Below are positions 22,304 to 45,190 of a stretch of DNA of 45,287 nt, piece after piece (position 1 is the first letter of the stretch; the number at the start of each line of letters is the position of its first letter). The notes under the pieces were generated by a model. It had not been told where the DNA came from. It worked only from the letters and a program-made list of their open reading frames with translations, and ran no database searches. Location: assembly GCA_937934185.1 (NCBI GenBank), contig CALHAB010000055.1, positions 1 to 45,287 on the forward strand. Reading direction: 5' to 3'. The position numbers and the translations under genes were made by a program. This stretch comes from an uncultured Ignavibacterium sp. (lineage in GTDB: Bacteria > Bacteroidota > Ignavibacteria > Ignavibacteriales > Ignavibacteriaceae).

Positions 22304-23716
22304 TTACTCTTCTGATTTTTGTTCTCTGTCAACAATGCCTGCCATAAATTCAGCTTCAGCAACAAGAACATCATTCACATAAGAACGGGCAGTCATAACT
22401 ACGACTTTACTTTTCTTCTGAGTCAGTTCAACTTCCATAAAAAGCTGGTCACCGGGCACAACCGGTTTTCTGAATTTGGCGTTATTTATCTGCATAAAGT
22501 AAACTAATTTTTCTTCAGGATTAGGGAATGAATTAAGAAGAAGAATTCCACCTGTTTGAGCCATAGCTTCAAGTATTAAAACTCCCGGCATTATCGGCTG
22601 ACCAGGGAAATGACCAATAAAGAACGGCTCATTAACAGTAACTGATTTTACACCAATTACTTTTTTATCCATATCAAGATGAATTATTTTATCAACTAAC
22701 AGAAAAGGATAGCGATGCGGAAGAATTCTTTGAATAGCATTTGAATCGAATACAACTCCTTCTTTCTTTACAAACTGAAATTTCTTTACGAGTTTTTTCT
22801 GCTGATATAGTTTCCTGATCTGCTTTGCAAATTCGACATTAGCTTTATGACCAGGCCGGGCGGCAAGTATCTGAGCTTTTATTGGCGCACCAATTAAAGC
22901 CAGATCTCCCATCAAATCCAAAAGTTTGTGTCTGACGGGTTCATTTTTGAATCTCAACTGCTTATTGTTCAGAATTCCGTGTTCACCCAAAACAAAATTT
23001 TCTGTAATTCCAATTTTCTTTCCCAATTCTTTAAGCTCTGAATCATTCAGATTATGATCAACTATAACAACTGCGTTATCCAAATCACCACCTTTAATCA
23101 AGCCATTATTAGCAAGTGCTTCCACTTCACTAAGAAAACAAAATGTTCGTGCAGGGGCAAATTCATTTACAAATTCCTTTTCTAAATCAAACAAACCAGT
23201 GTGCTGACTTCCTAAAGCAGGATTCTGATAATCAACCATTACAGTAATCCGGTAACCGTCAAGAGGAAGTGCTACTATATCAATTTGTTTTTCTTCGTTG
23301 TGGTACATTACTGTTTCATCAATCACAAGATAATCTTTTGGTGCTTCCTGTTGAACGAAACCGGCTTGCTGCAACACTTCCACATAAGGTAATGCACTTC
23401 CATCACCAACCGGTGGTTCAATTCCATCAAGTTCAATTATTATGTTGTCAATTTGCAATCCTACGATAGCTGCTAAAACATGCTCAACTGTATGAACTTT
23501 AGCTTCGCCAATTCCGATGGTTGTCCCTCTAGAAACATCAACAACATGTTCAGCAACTGCCGGAATTTCAGGATTACCACCTAAATCAATTCTTACAAAA
23601 CGAATCCCCGTATTTTCTGCAGCAGGTTTAAAGGTCATTGTACATTCAGTTCCTGTGTGAAGTCCGATACCACTCATTGAAACCGGATTAGCAATTGTTC
23701 TTTGTGTTTGAATCAT
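22304..23716 (-). CDS. Bifunctional LpxC deacetylase / FabZ dehydratase fusion
   Basis: N-terminal LpxC (VSMSGIGLHTG, HTVEHVLAA, DLMGDLALIG); C-terminal FabZ (ILPHRYPFLLVDKI, GHFPGQPIMPGVLILEAMAQTGG). Confidence 0.96.
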   Translation of the reverse strand: MIQTQRTIANPVSMSGIGLHTGTECTMTFKPAAENTGIRFVRIDLGGNPEIPAVAEHVVDVSRGTTIGIGEAKVHTVEHVLAAIVGLQIDNIIIELDGIEPPVGDGSALPYVEVLQQAGFVQQEAPKDYLVIDETVMYHNEEKQIDIVALPLDGYRITVMVDYQNPALGSQHTGLFDLEKEFVNEFAPARTFCFLSEVEALANNGLIKGGDLDNAVVIVDHNLNDSELKELGKKIGITENFVLGEHGILNNKQLRFKNEPVRHKLLDLMGDLALIGAPIKAQILAARPGHKANVEFAKQIRKLYQQKKLVKKFQFVKKEGVVFDSNAIQRILPHRYPFLLVDKIIHLDMDKKVIGVKSVTVNEPFFIGHFPGQPIMPGVLILEAMAQTGGILLLNSFPNPEEKLVYFMQINNAKFRKPVVPGDQLFMEVELTQKKSKVVVMTARSYVNDVLVAEAEFMAGIVDREQKSEE

Positions 23717-31235: not shown

Positions 31236-31928
31236 TTACTTAATAATATCCTCATTATTCTCAGTTTGATCCGCATCCAGCTTTACCATTTTAATATTGG
31301 AAGTATATTTTGAAAGAACTGGTGTTTTAATTTCATTCAACTGGTTCAGCACTTCTGTAATTTCTTTAATTGCGATATCAATATAATTCATCCTTTTAAG
31401 AATCATCTCTTTGGATATTTCATCCTTTTCAAGTTCCCTTTTAATTGCGGTTGATGACAAACTTAGTAAAGTTAACGGCTGTTTGATTTTATGATTTGCA
31501 GTTACAACCGTTGCCATAAAAGTGTCGCGCTTCTCTGCTTCAAGAAGAAGTTTATGCGCTTCTGATAATTTTAATGCTGATTTTACTCTTGCAAGAAGTT
31601 CAACTCTGTTGAATGGCTTTTTGATATAGTCGAAAGCTCCTGCTTCAAGCCCTTCTTTAGTATCTTCTGCACCTGATTTGGCTGTTACAAGAATGATTGG
31701 AATATCTTTGGTTACCGGATCATTGACAAGCCGGCGGCAGACTTCAATACCAGTAATGTCCGGCATCATTACATCAAGCAAAATTAAATCAGGTAATTCA
31801 CTTAATGCTTTTTCAATTCCGGTCGAACCGTTGTAAGCAGTTATAACTTCATAGCCTTCGTGCTCTAATCTGTCCTGCAGCATAAAAACATTTTCGGGAA
31901 GATCATCAATAACTAAAATTCTTTTCAT
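31236..31928 (-). CDS. Response regulator with C-terminal HisKA-like segment, no ATPase domain
   Basis: REC (ILVIDDLPENVF, LLDVMMPDITG, YIKKPF) then MATVVTANHKIKQPLTLLSLS; ORF ends without N/G boxes. Confidence 0.85.
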   Translation of the reverse strand: MKRILVIDDLPENVFMLQDRLEHEGYEVITAYNGSTGIEKALSELPDLILLDVMMPDITGIEVCRRLVNDPVTKDIPIILVTAKSGAEDTKEGLEAGAFDYIKKPFNRVELLARVKSALKLSEAHKLLLEAEKRDTFMATVVTANHKIKQPLTLLSLSSTAIKRELEKDEISKEMILKRMNYIDIAIKEITEVLNQLNEIKTPVLSKYTSNIKMVKLDADQTENNEDIIK

Positions 31929-34900
31929 AAAATATTCTGTTTAGCTTTGGAAAAAAGTTGACTTATCTTTGCTGAAACAATAGTTGAATTAACTGGTTTA
32001 GGAATGTAATCATTAAAGCCGAACTTCAGAATAACTTCTTTATCACCAGACATAGCTTTGGCGGTTACAGCAAAAACCGGAATGTTTGAAAAAGATTTAT
32101 TCATACGAATGTTCTTAAGGGTTTGAAATCCATCCATGCCCGGCATCATTATATCCAACAAGATAAGGTCTGGTTTAATATGATCTAACATCTTTAAACA
32201 TTCAACACCAGACTTTGCAAGATATGTTTTATAGCCCATTGACTGAACCAATTCATTCATCGTAAACAAAGTGTCGGGGTCATCATCAACAATCAAAATT
32301 TCTTCAACTGCTTTGTTGATATTTTTCTGTAATTCTGAGAGAGAATTTTTTTCTGAATCAGTTGAAATCCGGGATTTCAAAGTTTGACTTTCCTGTTCTT
32401 GCTGCTTAATTCTGTCTCGAACGATTTTAAGAACATCCATCGGATGTCCCTGTGACTTAATGGCAATTTGTTCCACAACTGAATTCAATGATTTCTTTTC
32501 ATTATCTGAAAGATCTTTTGCTGTACTTATTATTATTGGGATGTTCCTTGTGCTTCTGCTTGATTTTAGTTTATGGGTAAGTGAAATCCCGTCAACCTTT
32601 GGCATTATCAAATCAATGATTATTAGATCAGGTTGAACCTCAGAGATTTTATTAAAAGCATATTCACTATCCTGAATATATTCTATCGAAATGTTTTCGA
32701 AGCTGAATTCCTTTTTAAATTTTTCAAACTCGAGTTCATCATCATCTACAATCACGATCTTATGAATTTTTTTCTGTACTGATGCTTCAAGTTTATCAAA
32801 AGCTGCGAGAAGATTTTCTGCCGTAATTGGTTTAACGAGAAAATCAAAAGCGCCCAGTCCGACACCGATATTTTTATCACCGACAAATGAAACAAGAATA
32901 ACAGGAATATTTTTTGTCACCGGGTTTTCTTTTAATTCTTTGAGTACAGACCAGCCATCTTTATCAGGTAAAATAACATCAAGGGTTATTGCAAACGGTT
33001 TATTTTCAACGGCTAGTTTAATTCCACTTTCAGCATCCGGGGCAAAAATAACTTCATAACCTCTCGTAGTAAGATACTGCCCGATGGTAAAACGAACATC
33101 CGGGTCATCATCAATTACGAGAATTGGTTTATTAACATTTCTTTTATCAACTCCAAGCAAATTTAAATCAAATTCCTTGTTCCAATATTCACCACGATAA
33201 TTAACGGGTATTGTAAATGAAAATATTGAACCTTTGCCAACAATGCTTTTAACCCAGATTTTTCCGCCAAGCAGATCAACAATCTTCTTTGATATTGCCA
33301 AACCCAGACCTGTTCCGCTGTATCTTCTGGTTGTTGAACCATCAACTTGTCTGAACTCTTCGAAAATAATTTTTTGTGCATCTTCAGGAATACCAATTCC
33401 GGTATCGCTTACAGAGAAGACAAGATTATTATCATCCATCAGTGCAACACTTAATTCAATGTTTCCCTTGTCCGTAAATTTAACTGCATTACCAAGCAGG
33501 TTAATCAAAACCTGAGTTACTCTTCCTTTATCAGTTGTAACAATAATTTTTGTATCACATTTACGATTAATTGTGAATCGTAACCCCTTTTCATAAACAA
33601 GCGGTTGGATAGTTGAGGAAACATCCTCCAGCAATTCTTCAAGAAGAATTTCTTCTTCACGAATTTCCATTTTGCCAGCTTCAATCTTTGATAAATCGAG
33701 AATATCATTTATAAGATTCATCAATCTCTTTCCGCTTTTTAACACGACTTCAAGCCGTTCACGGTTCTTATCATCAATCTGAGCTTTATCAAGAATTAAT
33801 TCAGTCAGGCCGAGTATAGAATTCATAGGTGTTCTAAGTTCGTGAGACATACTCGCAAGAAATTGTGATTTTAATTTTGTTGATTCCTCGGCTTTTTGTT
33901 TTTGAATTTCAAGTTCTTTTGCTTTCTCTTTCAATTGCTCAGAAAGTTCGAGCAGGGTTTTATTCTGTTCCTTTATTTGTTCATTTTGTTTTTGCATCTC
34001 TTCATTGAGACGACTGAGTTCTTTAACAAAATTTTCTAACTGCACAAAAGCTTTTGCATTAGTTAAACCAATGGCCAATTGATCCTGGATTTTTGAAAGA
34101 TAGTTTATTGCTTCGTCAGTCGGTTTATTCAAGGAACCGAATTCTAAAACCGCAACAACTTTGTTTGAATAAATTACTGGTCTGATATGAAGATATTTGA
34201 TTTTGATTTCTAAAATTCCGGTTGAAGCAACAGGAAGAAAATTTTCAGATTCAATTGTTATTGGCTCTTTTGTTTCAATTACTTTTTTATAAAAAATATT
34301 ATTCTCCGCACCAATTTTATTGCTGCCAAGTCCGAAGGAAGTTATAAAACTAACTTCCTGGTCATCAACAGAGTAAATTGCTCCAATGGTAAACCCGCAG
34401 GTTTTAATTATCTTTTTTAATGCTGCTTCAGAAATTTCAGTAAGTGAAGGATTCTGATTAATTAGAGTTATAAATTCTGTATAATCATTCATTGCTTTGT
34501 GGTTTTTCACTATCTCATCGAGCATCAGATTAAATGCGTCACCCAATTTAGCTACTTCATCTTTACCCTTTACAGAAACTCGTGTGCTAAAATTTCCACT
34601 TCTAATCTCTTCTGTTGCAGAACTTAGTTCACCGATTTGCCTTCGGATTTTATTTGTAAGAAGATAAGAAAGAATTAATGATATAATTATTCCCACAAAG
34701 CCAATGATGAACAATACATTTTTCAGCGTATCTCTGAGAGTTGCAGCTTCACCCATTTTGTTAAATATCAGAAAGGAAAGATTAGTCTTTATGACATCAT
34801 CAGCATTGGTTTTATATAATGTTGCCAGGATGTCAGAGGCCTTGGTTCCCTGTGTATAAATTTCAAAATTATTTTTGTTTTTTAAATAATTATAAGCGGT

Positions 34901-35446
34901 ATTTATCAAATAAAGATATTCTCTGTTAACGGTTGGATTAGAAAGTTCTGCGGCAGAATTTTCCCATATTACAGCAACTTCTGCATTTATTCTCTGAGCA
35001 ATATCATCAATGAAACCCGAGTTAATTATTTTTCCATAAATATAATTTTGTCCCTCGAAGTTTTTTCTTTTAACAAGAGCCAGTGGATTAATTTCAAGAA
35101 ATTTTGAAATTGATTTCACATCCGGACTGATTAATACATTTTTGGAAAGGTAGAGATAATCAATAGTTTTTTCATCACTCTTAACTAAGATTACAAAATC
35201 GAGAGTTCTGGAGTTTATGAATTGTGATTTGTTTTTATTTTCAAGAAATGATAACAATTCATCATCAAGCTCAGACAATAATTTCTGAAAAGAATAGATA
35301 AAACTATTTGATGAATTGATAAGATTTTTTGTTTGCTGTGAATTGAGAGTACTAAAAATCAGTGAATAAAAAACTGTGGCGGCTGAAAGAAGAATTATAA
35401 CTACTACAGTGAAGTTTATAAGCAGTATTCGAAAGCTTATTTTCAT
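31925..35446 (-). CDS. Hybrid sensor histidine kinase with HAMP, GAF-like region and three tandem receivers
   Basis: TM, HAMP, coiled coil, SMSHELRTPMNSILG, DTGIGIPEDAQKIIFEEF, three REC domains each with an aspartate block. Confidence 0.93.
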   Translation of the reverse strand: MKISFRILLINFTVVVIILLSAATVFYSLIFSTLNSQQTKNLINSSNSFIYSFQKLLSELDDELLSFLENKNKSQFINSRTLDFVILVKSDEKTIDYLYLSKNVLISPDVKSISKFLEINPLALVKRKNFEGQNYIYGKIINSGFIDDIAQRINAEVAVIWENSAAELSNPTVNREYLYLINTAYNYLKNKNNFEIYTQGTKASDILATLYKTNADDVIKTNLSFLIFNKMGEAATLRDTLKNVLFIIGFVGIIISLILSYLLTNKIRRQIGELSSATEEIRSGNFSTRVSVKGKDEVAKLGDAFNLMLDEIVKNHKAMNDYTEFITLINQNPSLTEISEAALKKIIKTCGFTIGAIYSVDDQEVSFITSFGLGSNKIGAENNIFYKKVIETKEPITIESENFLPVASTGILEIKIKYLHIRPVIYSNKVVAVLEFGSLNKPTDEAINYLSKIQDQLAIGLTNAKAFVQLENFVKELSRLNEEMQKQNEQIKEQNKTLLELSEQLKEKAKELEIQKQKAEESTKLKSQFLASMSHELRTPMNSILGLTELILDKAQIDDKNRERLEVVLKSGKRLMNLINDILDLSKIEAGKMEIREEEILLEELLEDVSSTIQPLVYEKGLRFTINRKCDTKIIVTTDKGRVTQVLINLLGNAVKFTDKGNIELSVALMDDNNLVFSVSDTGIGIPEDAQKIIFEEFRQVDGSTTRRYSGTGLGLAISKKIVDLLGGKIWVKSIVGKGSIFSFTIPVNYRGEYWNKEFDLNLLGVDKRNVNKPILVIDDDPDVRFTIGQYLTTRGYEVIFAPDAESGIKLAVENKPFAITLDVILPDKDGWSVLKELKENPVTKNIPVILVSFVGDKNIGVGLGAFDFLVKPITAENLLAAFDKLEASVQKKIHKIVIVDDDELEFEKFKKEFSFENISIEYIQDSEYAFNKISEVQPDLIIIDLIMPKVDGISLTHKLKSSRSTRNIPIIISTAKDLSDNEKKSLNSVVEQIAIKSQGHPMDVLKIVRDRIKQQEQESQTLKSRISTDSEKNSLSELQKNINKAVEEILIVDDDPDTLFTMNELVQSMGYKTYLAKSGVECLKMLDHIKPDLILLDIMMPGMDGFQTLKNIRMNKSFSNIPVFAVTAKAMSGDKEVILKFGFNDYIPKPVNSTIVSAKISQLFSKAKQNIL

Positions 35447-35461
35447 TTGGTATCATTATCT

Positions 35462-35824
35462 CTACTCTTTTTGGAGTACTTTTCTGATTGTGATTAATAA
35501 TTCATCAAAGTCATATGGCTTGCTGAGAAAATCATTTGCTCCCATTTTGGCTGAGTCAATTGCACTTTTAACATCAGCGTATGCAGTAAGAACAATTACT
35601 TTTGCTTTAAGATCACGATACTCCATTTCTTTCAAAACTTCAAATCCATCTATGCCCGGCATTTTTAGGTCAAGAAGCATTAGATCAACCGAATTTTTTC
35701 TCAGAAAATCTAATGCTTCAAAACCACTGTTAACATAATTTACTTCATATCCAACCTCTGACAGTTCTTCACTTAGCACTTTACATAAGTTCACATCATC
35801 GTCAACTATCAGAATTGATTCCAT
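35462..35824 (-). CDS. Single-domain response regulator
   Basis: ILIVDDDVNLCKVL...LMLLDLKMPGIDGFEVL...FLSKPYDFDELL. Confidence 0.93.
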   Translation of the reverse strand: MESILIVDDDVNLCKVLSEELSEVGYEVNYVNSGFEALDFLRKNSVDLMLLDLKMPGIDGFEVLKEMEYRDLKAKVIVLTAYADVKSAIDSAKMGANDFLSKPYDFDELLITIRKVLQKE

Positions 35825-35830
35825 TGCAGT

Positions 35831-37054
35831 TTACCTGTTCTCAATTGTTTCGGTGCCATTAAGTTGATAGAATTTTATTTTATTATTTGCTTCTACTCTT
35901 TCTTTGAGTAATAAATTATCTGAAGTAGGATTGTTATGTCTTTCCTGTAAAGTAGGAAGCAGCTCAGCTTTTAGCAATATTACTAATTCTTTTTTTGTAA
36001 CCGTAGTCTGATCAGAACCAAATAAATACCTGAGACCGAAGAACCAGCCGGGTAAATCTTTTAAGAAAGGAATTCCATTTCTTGTCTGAGTTTCTTCATT
36101 TACAAACAATCCGCCAAGGACTGTTTCTTCTCCATTAAGCATAAGTATCTGAGTTGAAGCATTGGTTTTTCTGATTTCAGTAGTTTGTTCATTAAATGAG
36201 AATGAGCTTCTCTCAACAAGAATTTTGAGAAGTATATAGTCGATTCCTTTCTCATTATAAATATATGGTGTAACTTCGATGATTGTTCCGGTCGGGAAGA
36301 ACTTTTCAACAGTGTTACCAGCGAAGTCTCTCGTTCTTACTGAGAAATCAGAACCGACCTGAATTCGTCCCTGATTTTTATCTCTGACAACTACTGATGG
36401 ATTGGCAATAATCTCACCGAGATTTTCTTCCTCAAACCATCTGAAAAGAGCGGTTGCTTCTCCAAAGAAACTTCCAACTTTTCCAGCAGCTTCACTTGTA
36501 ATATTCAATTCTGGTGGTCTTGCCTGTTGCTGCTGTTGTGAAGTTGTTTGTGTGAATAACTCAGCACCAACATTCCAATCACTTTTTGATAATAAAATCT
36601 TCCAGTCAATTCCTCTTTTCTTTGATTCAGAAACATTCATTTCAAAAAAGACAGCAGAAATTTTTACTTCTCTGGTATCAAAGGATGCATACTCAGGTAA
36701 AGATTTTAACTTATCCTCGCCCGGTCGTTTTACGATAATTACATCTTCAGTTTCCTCAAAGATGTAACCATTATACTGAACTATTACCAGCAAAGCTTTG
36801 TCGTAAGGCATTCCTTCGATTTCAATTCCTATAGGATCTTTCGAATCAATAGTTGAAACGATTCTTTTTCCAGTTGTCATTTCACTTACTTTACTTAACA
36901 AAGCAATAGCTTCATTGAAAGGAAGTGATTGAGAAAGAGTAACAAGCTCATCGGGATTTCGGAAAGTCTTGAATTGCTTTTCAAGACGTTGCTGCGGGAG
37001 AACATCCCCAATTAAGATAAACACAAGTATTAAGATTGAAGTTATTGTTTTCAT
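35831..37054 (-). CDS. Short PilQ/GspD-like secretin
   Basis: Signal peptide; secretin core (ANPSVVVRDKNQGRIQVG..., LNGEETVLGGLFVNEETQTRNGIPFLKDLPGWFFGLRYLFG, ELVILLKAELLP). Confidence 0.88.
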   Translation of the reverse strand: MKTITSILILVFILIGDVLPQQRLEKQFKTFRNPDELVTLSQSLPFNEAIALLSKVSEMTTGKRIVSTIDSKDPIGIEIEGMPYDKALLVIVQYNGYIFEETEDVIIVKRPGEDKLKSLPEYASFDTREVKISAVFFEMNVSESKKRGIDWKILLSKSDWNVGAELFTQTTSQQQQQARPPELNITSEAAGKVGSFFGEATALFRWFEEENLGEIIANPSVVVRDKNQGRIQVGSDFSVRTRDFAGNTVEKFFPTGTIIEVTPYIYNEKGIDYILLKILVERSSFSFNEQTTEIRKTNASTQILMLNGEETVLGGLFVNEETQTRNGIPFLKDLPGWFFGLRYLFGSDQTTVTKKELVILLKAELLPTLQERHNNPTSDNLLLKERVEANNKIKFYQLNGTETIENR

Positions 37055-37064
37055 TTTACTTCTC

Positions 37065-37955
37065 TTATTTTTTCTTATTAAACTCTGTTCGATCTAATTC
37101 AAGATCTACTTTTTCTATTATACCACCTTTATTAAGAACGAAGCTGACCTTACTGTTCTGATAATCAATTTTAGTAAGATAACCGAGATAAACCTGCTCA
37201 CCTTCCCAAACAAGATAAGTATTACCTTTGGTGTCAGCTATGAAAGCACCTTCGGGAATCAATGCCAGCAACCTTGCGCCTTGCACATCAAGTAATCCAT
37301 CAACATTTGGCGGAATCTCGTTTCTGATCAACGGGAAGAATGCATCATAAATTTGACCAGTTCCAAGATTGTTTTCAACAGGCACAGCTGGTGCAAATCT
37401 GCTGTCGGTGGAAAAATATGCCACCACATCCATTGTAAAATTTACAAGGAACAATGGATTCTGATTCTTATCTGTTTTCACCAGGTTCCCGAAACTTATA
37501 GTTTTGATCTTCTTCAACTCTTTACTTTGTTCAATTGCATAAATTAATCTGTAAACTTCGTTGAAGTAACCAAAACCCGAAAGTTTATAGGAATGAGTTA
37601 AAAACTCTTTATCCTGTTTTTGGTCTAGATATTCAACATTCACCTGAGTCTGGTCAGAGAAACCAGATATGATACCATTGATAAAGTTAAAGAACTTTAT
37701 CGATGAGAGATTTTGCGGAATGTTGAATTTCCGGTTTGCTAGTATTGAATCCAGTTCAGCTGATCTTTTTGCTAATTCCATATAGCGGTTGTTAAGCTCA
37801 ACAGGATCAATAACTTTTGCATTGAGCTCTTTAAGTTTTTCTCTTTTTTCATCCAGCTTTTTACCCTGGATAAAGATAAGATAAATTAATCCCGCTGCAA
37901 CAATTACAACAAGAAGACCAAGAAGAACCAGTGTGCTTCGTAGTTTTTTATTCAT
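37065..37955 (-). CDS. PilO-like inner-membrane pilus assembly protein
   Basis: Start corrected to MNKKLRSTLVLLGLLVVIVAAGLIYLIF; single TM, coiled coil, between pilMN and secretin. Confidence 0.7.
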   Translation of the reverse strand: MNKKLRSTLVLLGLLVVIVAAGLIYLIFIQGKKLDEKREKLKELNAKVIDPVELNNRYMELAKRSAELDSILANRKFNIPQNLSSIKFFNFINGIISGFSDQTQVNVEYLDQKQDKEFLTHSYKLSGFGYFNEVYRLIYAIEQSKELKKIKTISFGNLVKTDKNQNPLFLVNFTMDVVAYFSTDSRFAPAVPVENNLGTGQIYDAFFPLIRNEIPPNVDGLLDVQGARLLALIPEGAFIADTKGNTYLVWEGEQVYLGYLTKIDYQNSKVSFVLNKGGIIEKVDLELDRTEFNKKK

Positions 37956-39504
37956 GTTTCTTTGGGTATGAAGATATATCAAAAATAATATTGAATTTAT
38001 AAGCATTTTGCTCTCTAAGAGGTTCATACAAAACACTCTTGAGAGTTGCTGATTGCAAATTAGTTGCAAACTCACTCAACGATGGTCTGTCAAGTCCATA
38101 ACCTTCCAGAAGAACAGTTGGACCATCATCTTTAGAAATTCTTGAAAGCCAAAGGTTTTGTTTTCTTCCCGCAAAAGTTGAAACATCACCTATTACTTCG
38201 TGCCATACACCAGCACCTGCGGATGCTGAATCAAGAATAGCAACGGTCTGATCAAAGCTGTTTATTTTTCCTTCCAGTTCAGCTATCTTCGACAAGACTT
38301 CTTCATTCTGTCTTAACAATATTGTCTTCTGGGCAATTTCCTGATCCATTTGAGCAGCATCTTTGTTATTCTGCAACACCTTCAAAGTAATTAAAAACGG
38401 AGCTAAGAATAACAATGGCAAAACTGCGAAGCTGTGCCATGAAAACTGAAAGAATTTCTGTTCTTCAGATATATACTTGGGAAGAAGATTGATTCCTTTA
38501 TGTTCCTTGGCAAGTTCATCAAAATATTCAGTTGCAATTGCCATCGGAACACTGAAAGAGGAAATCTTGCTCTTAACTTCATCATTTAATGATGAAAGAT
38601 CGAAATCGTCAAATTCAAGACGACTTACATTTGCTTCAGGAAAAGTTCCGTAGAAAGAAAGTATTAGATTTTCAGAATCATCTTCGCCGCAAACAATGAT
38701 ATTATCAAGCGATGATACTCCACCGGTTTCCATTTCAAGAAGTATCTTTGAGAAGTAAACATCATAAGTATGAAGATTGAGTGTACCGATATCAAGCGTA
38801 GTTCCGATATGTTTTAATTTTCTTCCGTGGAGGAAAATTAATTTACTGTATTCTTTTCCAATATAAACGATCAGACTCTGGTCATCAGGAAAAAACTTTT
38901 TTCTTTTAGCCACATAATACGCAAGTGCAACATCAGCACTTTTTATAGTAGGAACCTTGAAGAACTTTTTACCAAAATGATTAGCTATTCCATTAACCAG
39001 ATTAACACAAGCAACCTGTCCATCAACGAAAGCTGCAAGCAAACCACCATCTGAGAGTTCTGTGTAATCAATACTACCTTTTTCTACATTAATATTTTTT
39101 GAATCTCTGATTTCATTAATCAAAGACTCAATAATTTTCTGAGGTTTAAGGTCTTTCCTTCCCTCATAATAATGATAGAAAATGGCAGGCTCAGTAAGTG
39201 CCGGGATGAATTCAACTTTTGCCGGATTGATATTCTTAAATGCCTGAGCCATTGCTAAGATGCTTGGTGAGTCAGCTTCTCCAAGCAAACCAGCAGCTGC
39301 GTCAGGATTTGTATCAATCCCTTCAAGTTGAAGTCCTTCTGTATCGAGACTAAATGGAGTAGTTGATTCAGCTCCAACCTTCGGAGCAACTACATCAACA
39401 GCAGCAGTACTTAATACTTTTAATTTAGTACTGCCTTTCTCTTTAGTCACGATTGCAAGTTTTGTATCGTTGCCTTCGCAATATATGCAGGCGATTGTCT
39501 TCAT
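37948..39504 (-). CDS. PilM-PilN fusion
   Basis: N-terminal actin-like PilM region; then PilN-like INLLPKYISEEQKFFQFSW, TM, coiled coil and C-terminal alpha/beta domain. Confidence 0.75.
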   Translation of the reverse strand: MKTIACIYCEGNDTKLAIVTKEKGSTKLKVLSTAAVDVVAPKVGAESTTPFSLDTEGLQLEGIDTNPDAAAGLLGEADSPSILAMAQAFKNINPAKVEFIPALTEPAIFYHYYEGRKDLKPQKIIESLINEIRDSKNINVEKGSIDYTELSDGGLLAAFVDGQVACVNLVNGIANHFGKKFFKVPTIKSADVALAYYVAKRKKFFPDDQSLIVYIGKEYSKLIFLHGRKLKHIGTTLDIGTLNLHTYDVYFSKILLEMETGGVSSLDNIIVCGEDDSENLILSFYGTFPEANVSRLEFDDFDLSSLNDEVKSKISSFSVPMAIATEYFDELAKEHKGINLLPKYISEEQKFFQFSWHSFAVLPLLFLAPFLITLKVLQNNKDAAQMDQEIAQKTILLRQNEEVLSKIAELEGKINSFDQTVAILDSASAGAGVWHEVIGDVSTFAGRKQNLWLSRISKDDGPTVLLEGYGLDRPSLSEFATNLQSATLKSVLYEPLREQNAYKFNIIFDISSYPKKHE

Positions 39505-39507
39505 TTT

Positions 39508-40734
39508 TTATGCTGCTAATATTTGATGAATTCGTGTTTTATTGTTTGCGTAAGTAATTGCTGTTTCTAATGAAATTTTCTTCTCCAAATATAATCTCTT
39601 TAAATCTTGTTCCATAGTGATCATACCTTGTGCTCCGCCCTGATTCATCATCATATAAATTTCACTGGTGTTGTTATTCTTGATCGCTGCTTTAACACTT
39701 GGTGTTACAATCAGAACTTCTTTTGCCAGAACCCGCTTACCATCCAGACTTGGAACAAGCTTCTGAGAAACAATTGAAATAAGAACATCTGCTAATCTGT
39801 TTCTTACACGCTCCTGCTCGGTCGGATGAACTTCAGCAATAATTCTGTCAATAGATTCAACTGCTGAAGAAGTATGTAATGTTGAAAATACTTTATGACC
39901 AGTGTCTGTAACTTCAAGAGCAGCCATTATAGTATCAGGGTCTCTCATTTCACCCACGATAATAATGTCGGGGTCTTGTCTTAATGCCTGAACAATTCCA
40001 TCTTTGAATGTCGCTACATCTCTTCCAACTTCGCGGTGTTTTATCAAAGAAACATTTGAAGTGTGAACATATTCTATAGGAGCAGCAATTATAATTATAT
40101 GGCAGGGATCAAATTTATTATGATGATCAACTATTGAGTCAAGAGTAGTTGATTTACCTGAACCGGTTATACCAGTAATCAGAGATAAACCAAATTTAAT
40201 GTATCCGTGACTCATTGTCCTGACAACATTTGGATGGAATTCAAGACTTGCCAGAGGTCTGATACTTTGATTAATTGCTCTCATATTAAGAGTGAGAGTA
40301 TCAAGGTCAAAGTATGCATCGGCTCTGAATCTTACATTAACATTTCTTCTTTCGTAAAGGAAAGTATAACTGAAATCCAGATTTTTATTTTCCCAAAGGT
40401 GTTTTCTCTGATTGGTATTAAGCAGGTTTATTATAATTGTTGCAGCTTCATCATCTGAAAATTGCGGCAGGTCTTTAGCTCTTTCTTTATTACCATAAAC
40501 TCTCATCCATATGTAACCACAGTTTCCATGACCACCAACTTCAATATCTGAAGCATCACGTTCGATCATGCTTGTTAAAAACTTATTGAAGAGTTTACGG
40601 AGGAGAATTTTATCCTGATCTTTTATATTATCTATGTTTTCAATAATATAATGCACGCGATCGGGACCAAACAAGCCTTCGGGAATAGTTCTGCAAAAAA
40701 CTTCAAGTACTTTTTTTTCTTCTTGAACGTTCAC
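39508..40734 (-). CDS. PilT-like type IV pilus ATPase
   Basis: Walker A GITGSGKSTTLDSIVDHHN, Walker B IIIVGEMRDPDTI, STLHTSSAVESIDRII; unusual Asp box AAPIEYVH. Confidence 0.9.
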   Translation of the reverse strand: MNVQEEKKVLEVFCRTIPEGLFGPDRVHYIIENIDNIKDQDKILLRKLFNKFLTSMIERDASDIEVGGHGNCGYIWMRVYGNKERAKDLPQFSDDEAATIIINLLNTNQRKHLWENKNLDFSYTFLYERRNVNVRFRADAYFDLDTLTLNMRAINQSIRPLASLEFHPNVVRTMSHGYIKFGLSLITGITGSGKSTTLDSIVDHHNKFDPCHIIIIAAPIEYVHTSNVSLIKHREVGRDVATFKDGIVQALRQDPDIIIVGEMRDPDTIMAALEVTDTGHKVFSTLHTSSAVESIDRIIAEVHPTEQERVRNRLADVLISIVSQKLVPSLDGKRVLAKEVLIVTPSVKAAIKNNNTSEIYMMMNQGGAQGMITMEQDLKRLYLEKKISLETAITYANNKTRIHQILAA

Positions 40735-40878: not shown

Positions 40879-42672
40879 TTACTGTTCTGTAGTGTTAGCA
40901 AGCACTTCCTCGATAGATGTTAAACCCATCTTAACTTTTTCAAAGCCGGCTTCCCTCAATGTGAGTGTACCATCTTTTCTTGCCTGTTCACGAATTTTTT
41001 CTTCATCAACTTCTTCACCTGCTTTAACAATAATATGTCTGATTTCTTTTGTGAAATATAATGCTTCGTGAATAGCAATTCTACCTTTGTAACCTGTATG
41101 GTTACACTGATCGCATCCAACTGCCTGATAGATTGTATAATTTCTCCACTCTGCAATGTTTAATCCTGCAGCATTCATTACATCTTCATCAAAGTTCACA
41201 ACTTTCTTCTTGCAATTATTGCACAACCGTCTGATAAGTCTTTGAGCGACTATAAGATTTATCGCATAAGCAATTAAGAATGGTTCAATACCCATTTTAT
41301 ATAATCTTGATACAGCACTTGGGGCATCGTTCGTGTGAAGTGTGGAAAATGTTAAGTGACCTGTATTAGCAAGTTTTATTGCAGTCTCAGCTGTTTCTCT
41401 GTCTCTCATCTCACCAACCAGTACAATATCAGGGTCATGTCGAAGTATAGATCTGATTGCCTGTTCAAAGTTCATCTTAAATCCAATCTTCAGCTGACGG
41501 GCACCTTCGATAACATACTCAACAGGATCTTCAACTGTCAGAACATTTACCTCCGGAGTTATAACCTGATATAATGCCGCAACAAGAGTAGTGCTTTTAC
41601 CACTACCCGTCGGACCAGTTAGAATAACCATTCCCTGCGGTTCATTAATAGCTTTCTCAAATGCTTTTCTTGCATAGCCGGCAAGTCCCAATTTATCAAG
41701 GTCTTTGATAACTTTTCTGTCATCAAGAATTCTTATTACTACACTTTCAAATTTATTTTTCAGCTCAGTGCCCACCATTGGAAGAATTGATACACGGAAT
41801 CTTATAATATGGTTATCAATTTCTCTCTGGATAAAACCGTCCTGAGCCATTTCTCTTTCAAACCTGTCCATTCCTTTCGAGCGGTCTTTTACAACTGCAA
41901 CGACTGCTTCGGGCAAAGTATTTTCCTGAGTATGCCACAATTGTAAGTTACCATCAATTCTGAACATAATATCTGTTTTATTTCCTGAGCGGGGAATGAA
42001 ATGAATATCGCTGGCGCCTTTTCTTACACCTTCAATCAAGGCTCCTTCAACAAGATTAATAAGAGCACTTCTATTAATTTCAGCTTCAAGTTCCTGCTCA
42101 TCAATACCGCCCTCGTCAACAGATGCTTCAATAAATTCCTGCTGTTCTCTTTCCAGCTCTTTCAGAAATTCATTTTCAGGGGGAAGAATAATGTTGATAA
42201 GTTTTTCGTAATCTTTTTTCTTGATAAAAATTACTTCATGCTTCTTTGCATTAAGTCCGAAAGCAATCTTTGCAATTTCTCTGTCGGTTGGATCTGTTGC
42301 TGCGAGAATAAGCTTGTCGCGATTGCGGTCATCAAACATGAAGGGTATGACGCCGTGTTCGAGCATCGTCTTCTTTAAGTTTTCACCACCGCTTTCAATA
42401 AGATTACGGATAAGCTGTAAACGGCTTTCCGGAATTTCTTCGGGCTTTGTATCTAATTCACGGAATGCATAAAGAATTGCAACTTCGCGGAAAATAACAT
42501 CGTGATCGTAGCCAAAATCCTGCACAAGTATCTGTGCAAGATTTCTTTTGACTTTGCTTTTATCATTGTTCTTGGCATTAAGTGCCCTCTCAAGTGTTTG
42601 AGCATCGATTATCCCCTTTTTATAAAGGAGATAACCGATTTTGTCGCTCATCTCGAGATTTGTATCAATCAT
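40879..42672 (-). CDS. pilB: PilB/GspE-type assembly ATPase
   Basis: N-terminal MshEN-like domain; GPTGSGKSTTLVAAL, VEDPVEYVIEGARQ, CNNC...CDQC metal site. Confidence 0.95.
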   Translation of the reverse strand: MIDTNLEMSDKIGYLLYKKGIIDAQTLERALNAKNNDKSKVKRNLAQILVQDFGYDHDVIFREVAILYAFRELDTKPEEIPESRLQLIRNLIESGGENLKKTMLEHGVIPFMFDDRNRDKLILAATDPTDREIAKIAFGLNAKKHEVIFIKKKDYEKLINIILPPENEFLKELEREQQEFIEASVDEGGIDEQELEAEINRSALINLVEGALIEGVRKGASDIHFIPRSGNKTDIMFRIDGNLQLWHTQENTLPEAVVAVVKDRSKGMDRFEREMAQDGFIQREIDNHIIRFRVSILPMVGTELKNKFESVVIRILDDRKVIKDLDKLGLAGYARKAFEKAINEPQGMVILTGPTGSGKSTTLVAALYQVITPEVNVLTVEDPVEYVIEGARQLKIGFKMNFEQAIRSILRHDPDIVLVGEMRDRETAETAIKLANTGHLTFSTLHTNDAPSAVSRLYKMGIEPFLIAYAINLIVAQRLIRRLCNNCKKKVVNFDEDVMNAAGLNIAEWRNYTIYQAVGCDQCNHTGYKGRIAIHEALYFTKEIRHIIVKAGEEVDEEKIREQARKDGTLTLREAGFEKVKMGLTSIEEVLANTTEQ

Positions 42673-44045
42673 GTGATTCTGAATTCCGTATTATTTGTTA
42701 CTGATGCTGTTCCGGGTGTCTTTGGTCTTACCGTAGCAGTTTCTGCAGACACTAATGTTAATGCAATCATCACTACCATTATTATCATAGCAATAGCCAC
42801 CTGAATAAGTTCAATTAAGTTTTTGAGTTTATAAACTGTTTCAGCTTCGTAATAATTTGCTAATTGTAATGCTGTATTTTTTATTGTTCCCGTTTCCTCA
42901 CCTGAATGGAATCTTGACAAAGCTGTTTCAGTAAACACACCCGCAGCTTCAAATGCTTCTGTAACACCAATACCTTTTTTAATCATAAGAGGAATTGCTA
43001 CATTTTTTATTCTGTCTTCAAAATATCTGTTGCCTGCTGCTTCTGCTGCTATTCTTATCGGCTCAATACTTTCTGCTGATCCGCTATATAGTGCATAAAA
43101 CACGCGACAGAAAACTTCAATTAATGTTTTATGAATCAAAGGACCAATTACAGGCAATGTTAAAATCCATTTGTCAATCAGATACGCTCCTTTATCTGTA
43201 CGCGAAAAGTAAAACAGCCCAACTGGTGGAATTATAAAAAATGCCGCCACAAGATAAGGATTCTCAACTAAAAAATCACTTATCTTTAATGTAAAAGCAG
43301 TCATAGGAGGTAACTCAACTCCAAAGCGAACAAACAACTTTGCAGTTTCGGGAAAAATATATCCGACATAAAATATTACTGCAAGGAATAAAACAAACAC
43401 AGTAACCATCGGAGTGATAAGCGCGCTTCTTAAATTTTTTCTGAACTCTTGTCTTCGCTCAAGAAACTTTGCGGTAGCTTTATATATCTCGGTCATATTA
43501 CCGGACTTTGAAGCAAGACCAAGCATATAAGCAGTAAACTTTCCAAACACATCCTGATACTTTAAAAATGTAACCTGGCTGTCTGCACCTTTTTTAAGTT
43601 CGTTGTTGATTTCTTTCAGAGTGTTTTTGAGAGTTGCGTTTTGAGTGTCATTGATGAGTAAGTTCAGAATCTCACCATAGGAAAGTTTCTGCTCAAGTAA
43701 TTCTGCACTTATCTTTACAAATGTAACTATCTCCTGAACAGGCGGCTTTGCCTGGAAATCAATTAACTTCTGATTTACAGATATTACTTTATAACCAAGT
43801 CTGGTCAAAGCGTCTTCAACTTCTTTTTTGTTGAATGCTTTCTGTTCGCCTTTGATTGGTTTGTCATTCCCTTTTTGTGCTTTATAAAGGAATGTTCTTT
43901 TCTTTTCAATAGAAAGAACTTTTAATTGATTCTTCTCAGCAAGTGCTGAGAGTTTTTTCTTTCCTTCACTAAGTGCATTTGCTGAAAGAGTTCCGGTAAT
44001 TGTCTGACCGTTAACTTTCTGGGCAGTGAATTTAAATTCGATCAT
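42669..44045 (-). CDS. pilC: PilC/GspF inner-membrane platform protein
   Basis: N-terminal FKFTAQKVNGQTITGTLSA; two GspF domains (LGLASKSGNMTEIYKA, FHSGEETGTIKNTALQLANYYE). Confidence 0.93.
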   Translation of the reverse strand: MIEFKFTAQKVNGQTITGTLSANALSEGKKKLSALAEKNQLKVLSIEKKRTFLYKAQKGNDKPIKGEQKAFNKKEVEDALTRLGYKVISVNQKLIDFQAKPPVQEIVTFVKISAELLEQKLSYGEILNLLINDTQNATLKNTLKEINNELKKGADSQVTFLKYQDVFGKFTAYMLGLASKSGNMTEIYKATAKFLERRQEFRKNLRSALITPMVTVFVLFLAVIFYVGYIFPETAKLFVRFGVELPPMTAFTLKISDFLVENPYLVAAFFIIPPVGLFYFSRTDKGAYLIDKWILTLPVIGPLIHKTLIEVFCRVFYALYSGSAESIEPIRIAAEAAGNRYFEDRIKNVAIPLMIKKGIGVTEAFEAAGVFTETALSRFHSGEETGTIKNTALQLANYYEAETVYKLKNLIELIQVAIAMIIMVVMIALTLVSAETATVRPKTPGTASVTNNTEFRIT

Positions 44046-44316: not shown

Positions 44317-44343
44317 AAAAAAAGGCTGTCTATTTAGACAGCC
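44317..44343 (-). terminator. Rho-independent terminator downstream of pilin-like genes
   Basis: GGCTGTCTA-TT-TAGACAGCC then T-run on the minus strand. Confidence 0.88.
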
Positions 44344-44364
44344 TCAAATGTCCTTGGGAATTTA

Positions 44365-44754
44365 TTAGTTCTGTACAACTACGCTATTAATTTCAGTGGG
44401 CGTTACAGTTGTAGTCACAGTCCAATCATATTCAGATTCTTTTGGAGTTCCGGTAATCTGAATGCTTGTAGAACTACCTGACCCAATTGACCAAGTACCG
44501 GTTGGGGTATCTAATAAATTCGCTGGAACTCTACCAGGGTCCTCAAATCCAGCGAAACTATTTCCACCGCCACCCATAGCTACTGGTTTTTTGTAGTACT
44601 GCTGTGCTAAAGCACCGAGGTTTGTTCCCTCTGAAATCATTGTGTCCTTAGCTGATTCCTCAGCATTTGCGTTAAATAAGTTGATACCAACTACTACTGC
44701 AATACCAACTATAATGACGCCAAGAACGATTAAGAGAAGTTGTTGTTGACCCAT
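44365..44754 (-). CDS. Pilin-like protein, paralogue 1
   Basis: MGQQQLLLIVLGVIIVGIAVVVGINLF N-terminal helix; GGGGNSFAGF motif; RBS AAAGGAGATCTAAA before the start. Confidence 0.75.
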   Translation of the reverse strand: MGQQQLLLIVLGVIIVGIAVVVGINLFNANAEESAKDTMISEGTNLGALAQQYYKKPVAMGGGGNSFAGFEDPGRVPANLLDTPTGTWSIGSGSSTSIQITGTPKESEYDWTVTTTVTPTEINSVVVQN

Positions 44755-44809
44755 TTTAGATCTCCTTTATTTTGTTGAACATATTGAATGAATTTAATTA
44801 AGAGAAACT

Positions 44810-45190
44810 TTAATTTATAATTTCCGTTTTTATGCCACTAGCATCAACTTTTGTTCTAATCTCAACAAGCACACCGGAAGTGACATATTCATTACCTATA
44901 CCGGTTATAATAACACTATCTTGAAATATCTGAGCACTATAGGAACCATTAGTCGTAGTTTGTAGTCGAGCGGGAATTTGCCATCCGCTAAATGAATATT
45001 CACCGCCTCCATATAGTCTGGCCTTCTTATAATATTGTAAAGCCATAGATGCTATGTTAACACTCTCATTAATCACTACATCCCTTTTATTCTCAATCGA
45101 ATTCGCTTGGAATAATATAATCCCAATAACTATTGCTATACCCACAATTATTACACCTAATACAATTAAAAGTAACTGTTGTTGTCCCAT
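44810..45190 (-). CDS. Pilin-like protein, paralogue 2
   Basis: Near-identical N-terminus MGQQQLLLIVLGVIIVGIAIVIGIILF; YYKKARLYGGGEYSFSGW motif. Confidence 0.75.
   Translation of the reverse strand: MGQQQLLLIVLGVIIVGIAIVIGIILFQANSIENKRDVVINESVNIASMALQYYKKARLYGGGEYSFSGWQIPARLQTTTNGSYSAQIFQDSVIITGIGNEYVTSGVLVEIRTKVDASGIKTEIIN

Follow-up and report, generated by a model that had tools for sequence, protein, structure and literature searches.

Pilins that begin Met-Gly-Gln-Gln-Gln in a probable lineage of retractable type IV pili mostly lacking the prepilin peptidase

Can a type IV pilus be built from pilins that have no leader to lose? The N-terminus of a pilin is normally freed for assembly by leader removal, and the question arises from two adjacent genes in a 45,287-nucleotide stretch of DNA from an uncultured Ignavibacterium sp. 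(hereafter the window), whose products begin Met-Gly and lack Glu5, a residue frequent but not universal among pilins. Published prepilin leaders comprise 6–26 residues and end in Gly or Ala (2014 review, PMC4471445), the leader is used to recognise pilins, and reviews list the prepilin peptidase as a universal component of type IV filament systems (PMC4471445, PMC10191384). Our literature searches for leaderless pilins found no paper, and the 2013 genome paper on Melioribacter roseus reported pilT, pilQ, pilB and pilC and neither pilA nor pilD (PMC3534657).

Both genes lie on the minus strand. The proximal gene, pilA1 (44365–44754, 129 aa), encodes the candidate major subunit, and the distal gene, pilA2 (44810–45190, 126 aa; MGQQQ...IENKRDVVINES...), a second leaderless pilin. 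A sequence-only reading of the window had described tandem open reading frames (ORFs) with a near-invariant N-terminus and Leu in place of Glu5, followed by divergent sequence apart from one motif. The two proteins proved identical over their first 19 residues (MGQQQLLLIVLGVIIVGIA), with Leu for Glu5 in both, and divergent beyond residue 19 save for QYYKK...GGG..SF.G. A hydrophobic N-terminal helix of 20–25 residues was present in sequence and models alike, and in essentially all homologues Met-Gly alone, rather than a hydrophilic class III leader, preceded Gln-Gln-Gln-Leu.

Misplaced start codons, with longer leaders hidden upstream, would explain this N-terminus, and these data refute that explanation so clearly that we give it next to no credence. 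We assembled 134 homologous ORFs from other genomes with a pattern fixing Gly2 and Gln3–Gln5. An in-frame stop stood 1–18 codons 5' of the start at every locus but one, which was cut off; 1 of the 134 ORFs offered another start in frame, and the upstream codons were not conserved. Shine-Dalgarno-like sites preceded the assigned start in 113 of 133 ORFs, compared with 16.5% of random positions; in the window, an AAGGAG site (44762–44767, minus strand) lies 7 nt before the pilA1 ATG. TTG or GTG replaced ATG at the same codon in 18 of the 134 ORFs, again followed by Gly-Gln-Gln-Gln-Leu. The stops, the scarcity of other possible starts and the Shine-Dalgarno sites make the assigned start codon secure. 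Outside the picking pattern, Leu7, Leu8, Ile9 and Leu11 were 96–99% invariant across the 134 ORFs while their codons varied freely, indicating that selection acts on the protein, and the conservation of this N-terminus is far beyond chance. A pattern-free HMM search recovered the MGQQQLLL start in all homologues outside the class, with the exception of one paralogue (MGNRELLL). A pilin paralogue at L118:4218 (plus strand) begins MGNRELLLVILV and has charged residues where the other pilins have the Gln triad.

Structure prediction bore out the proposed pilin-like nature of both proteins. The AF2 model of pilA1 (pLDDT 96.4, pTM 0.81) contained a helix at residues 3–55 and four strands, and that of pilA2 (pLDDT 91.6) a helix at residues 2–55 and four strands. 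The window pilins are thus predicted to adopt the pilin lollipop fold, in which a helix of about 53 residues carries a four-stranded antiparallel beta sheet. Foldseek lists for the models were led by pilins, namely PilV (probability 0.98), PAK pilin (TM 0.64 by query) and Thermus PilA4, with weak E-values (best 0.09 and 0.24). Sequence similarity was also weak: no Pfam or NCBIfam model, N_methyl included, scored above cut-off against either window pilin, the Pfam ComP pilin model matched 7 of 41 family members (best E 4.7e-4), neither the pilin nor the profile of a minor-pilin-like family (J, below) found a credible relative in sequence searches of the PDB, and the profiles of the major pilin and canonical GspG showed no significant match.

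Such weak similarity to known pilins could mean that the MGQQQ proteins are small membrane-anchored accessory proteins of a pilus whose real pilin is encoded elsewhere. The predicted pilin fold argues against this, as does the genomic position of the genes. On the same strand, the two pilin genes are followed by pilC (inner-membrane platform, 42669–44045; Pfam T2SSF E=4.9e-28 and NCBIfam GspF/PilC models), pilB (extension ATPase, 40879–42672; T2SSE 9.9e-106, TIGR02538 PilB 1.6e-131), pilT (retraction ATPase, 39508–40734; TIGR01420 5.9e-98, exceeding the curated cut-off), a pilM-pilN-like fusion of the alignment complex (37948–39504; a weak Pfam PilN match of 0.0035 and its operon position in relatives), a pilO-like gene (37065–38075) and pilQ (outer-membrane secretin, 35831–37054; Pfam Secretin 7.9e-30, TIGR02515 PilQ 3.2e-28). 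The pilO-like protein gave no credible family match; it was assigned by conserved position and tblastn matches, and its probable start lies near 37955 (MNKKLRSTLV). The location upstream of pilC and pilB given by the sequence-only reading was therefore right and extends to pilT, pilMN, pilO and the secretin. An extension ATPase, a platform protein and a secretin are encoded with the pilin, as in type IV filament systems, and the window's cluster held no further conserved gene. Between pilA1 and pilC lies an intrinsic-terminator-like hairpin with a 10-bp stem and a T tail (44322–44345, minus strand), consistent with the pilins being transcribed more strongly than the machine.

Where the flanks were long enough, most relatives inside and outside the class showed the same arrangement, pilA followed by pilC, pilB, pilT and the remaining genes, so homologues did not lie mostly away from pilus genes. 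Among 250 genomes sampled from the class, 133 carried the pilin, 131 carried PilC/GspF and 129 carried both, leaving 4 and 2 discordant genomes (Fisher p about 1e-63); PilC thus accompanied the pilin in 129/133. In 115 of the 133 pilin-bearing genomes no other pilin was seen, since these had neither an N_methyl pilin nor the prepilin peptidase domain Peptidase_A24 (A24; PilD). Together with the pilA position ahead of pilC and the intervening terminator, these observations make an accessory role very improbable. Directly after pilQ, positions 31236–35824 encode two response regulators on either side of a multi-domain hybrid sensor kinase of 1173 aa, and these three proteins may regulate the pilus. 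Elsewhere in the window (22304–23716), a single 470-aa ORF appeared by eye to be an LpxC-FabZ fusion.

Scanning a single genome for each species yielded at least 487 relatives; the 79 loci that we retained derive from Ignavibacteria, Kryptonia, KSB1 and records with similar names. Besides its members in the class sample, the family was present in about 43 genomes elsewhere in the phylum sample (a hand count from lists), and the MGQQQLLL start ranged from Ignavibacteria to Rhodothermus; the pilin system extends over several families of the phylum. Two of the carriers, G252 and G256, very probably belong to Rhodothermus (R. marinus or a near-identical relative), since the G252 cellulase is almost identical to the solved endoglucanases 2bw8/1h0b, which we take to be R. 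marinus proteins, and the G256 copy is closer still. Balneolaceae and similar family names for further carriers are guesses. The two window genes fall into separate, ancient groups of paralogues: in the tree, the clade of pilA2 (support 0.995) took in 33 of the 42 distal genes and none of the proximal ones. L004 and L005, on different contigs of a single Ignavibacterium assembly, are seemingly identical pilus clusters, perhaps an assembly duplicate.

The sequence-only reading had treated Met-Gly as a two-residue leader cut after Gly2. This part of the claim was not supported, as the cutting enzyme was missing from most of these genomes. Peptidase_A24 was not found in the window's own genome at E-values up to 10 (a draft, 86% complete). 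Within the class, 119 of the 133 pilin-bearing genomes lacked it, as did 38 of the 43 outside the class (hand count from lists), or 157/176 in the class and the rest of the phylum sample. Among single-contig pilin-bearing genomes, 13/14 lacked it (7/7 in the class, 6/7 outside). The same search detected the domain in 12 of 14 control genomes, archaea and Caulobacter among them.

Where Peptidase_A24 did occur, it followed a different set of pilins. All 14 of the 250 class genomes with an above-cut-off match were pilin-bearing, and 13 of these 14 also encoded canonical N_methyl pilins (p=7e-17). In the five class loci read (L097, L099, L100, L101, L102), the A24 gene was close to a GspG-type gene with a normal leader ending in G/FTLIE, G/FSLTE or similar, and in four of the five it lay within a fuller T2SS-like cluster; outside the class, the surroundings of A24 in L134 and L135 resembled these clusters. 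Since A24 stands beside canonical pseudopilins in separate clusters, these genomes hold both kinds of system. Processing of the MGQQQ pilins by A24 was considered and rejected, as A24 follows the N_methyl pilins and sits in separate T2SS-like clusters in the loci read. The sole A24 match without N_methyl pilins is on a 1.8-kb orphan contig of G238 (L104, G238:C362), and this ORF may be a contaminant. G174, a complete genome that lacks A24, carries a second GspF-like gene interrupted by an internal stop (G174:C1:2518637-2519617), perhaps a decaying T2SS.

Alternatively, an unrecognised peptidase could remove a very short leader by cleaving after Gly2, and the exposed Gln1 (Gln3 of the translated protein) could then cyclise to pyroglutamate. 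The invariant Gly2 resembles the prepilin Gly at −1, and pyroglutamate has been described in a Methanococcus maripaludis pilin (review PMC4471445). We nevertheless regard this as unlikely, because Peptidase_A24 is so widely missing, because the window's cluster offers no additional conserved gene and because the minor pilins of the same set point the other way. Three leaderless minor-pilin-like families were found, encoded in the order I-J-K with a hydrophobic helix at each start (I, J and K about 140–190, 165–230 and 320–520 aa). Kryptonia-, Rhodothermus- and Balneolaceae-like loci have these genes between pilB and pilT, L050 has them between pilA and pilC, and in L070 they follow pilB; HMM searches of Ignavibacteria loci added many more members. 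Family J was detected in 130 of the 133 pilin-bearing class genomes; it was not found in the window's genome, and G158, a complete genome of the same genus, has two. K is the one family for which profile comparison showed sequence homology to canonical minor pseudopilins (K versus GspK, 82% probability); the comparison of J with GspJ was not significant.

These minor-pilin-like proteins begin Met-Asn, Met-Ser or Met-Phe, which does not fit a cut after Gly2: residue 2 is Asn in 18/43 I and 7/45 J members and Phe in 11/45 K members. Of 45 J members, 25 have their first acidic residue at position 6, which becomes position 5 only through the loss of Met and nothing more (for example M/SELLDTIGS); 16 have it at position 8 and 4 at position 3, the last including the MSDLIE type, which also carries Glu6.

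We therefore consider it likely that this is a lineage of retractable type IV pili whose pilins are translated in their mature form, with at most the removal of Met, and which has dispensed with PilD. The pilin would be translated nearly mature as Met1 followed by Gly2-Gln-Gln-Gln-Leu and the hydrophobic helix, and SRP/Sec would insert it with its N-terminus on the cytoplasmic face. Methionine aminopeptidase removes Met preceding Gly, Ala, Ser or Thr. Because Gly2 is a classic substrate, a Met-Gly start would need no other enzyme, and the housekeeping methionine aminopeptidase could strip the initiator Met and leave a free N-terminal Gly at the membrane surface. Minor-pilin-like proteins with Asn or Phe as residue 2 probably retain their Met, so that Met removal would not be universal. 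PilB and PilC would then polymerise the pilins into a fibre that exits via PilQ and is retracted by PilT. Mutants of Glu5 fail to form homopolymers (PMC4471445), and on this ground the invariant Gln triad probably stands in for Glu5, capping the N-terminus within the fibre. The leaderless I-J-K set, with J mostly acidic at residue 5, would probably form the initiating tip complex. Without a leader, nothing is left for PilD to cut, and PilD would have been lost save where a separate T2SS-like system still requires it.

The proposed pilus shares its machine parts and N-terminal hydrophobic helix with the type IVa pilus (PilA/PilE, PilB, PilC, PilT, PilMNO, PilQ), together with a predicted lollipop fold and a minor-pilin-like set, but differs in the absent leader, the mostly absent PilD, the lack of Glu5 in the main pilins and the blindness of Pfam N_methyl to them. 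The T2SS pseudopilins GspG-K of the same bacteria (L097, L100, L101, L102) work with a related ATPase, platform and secretin and include an I-J-K-style set; unlike the leaderless pilins, they have longer leaders (G/FTLIE, G/FSLTE or similar) and PilD within the cluster. MSHA loci, as here, have no prepilin peptidase of their own and may borrow that of another system (superfamily survey, PMC6668835); MSHA-bearing genomes, however, always have a system with a usable PilD, whereas most of the genomes studied here contain none at all. Nanoarchaeota were the sole phylum with prepilins and no detectable prepilin peptidase in a 2014 survey (PMC4471445). The absence of the peptidase is common to both cases, but the nanoarchaeal type IV filament genes are archaeal and leaderless subunits have not been described for them.

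A lineage-wide loss of prepilin processing and of PilD would mean that leader removal is not essential to type IV filament assembly, a conclusion that we consider likely. The function of the leader and of Glu5 would thereby become directly testable, with the genomes that hold both systems serving as natural controls.
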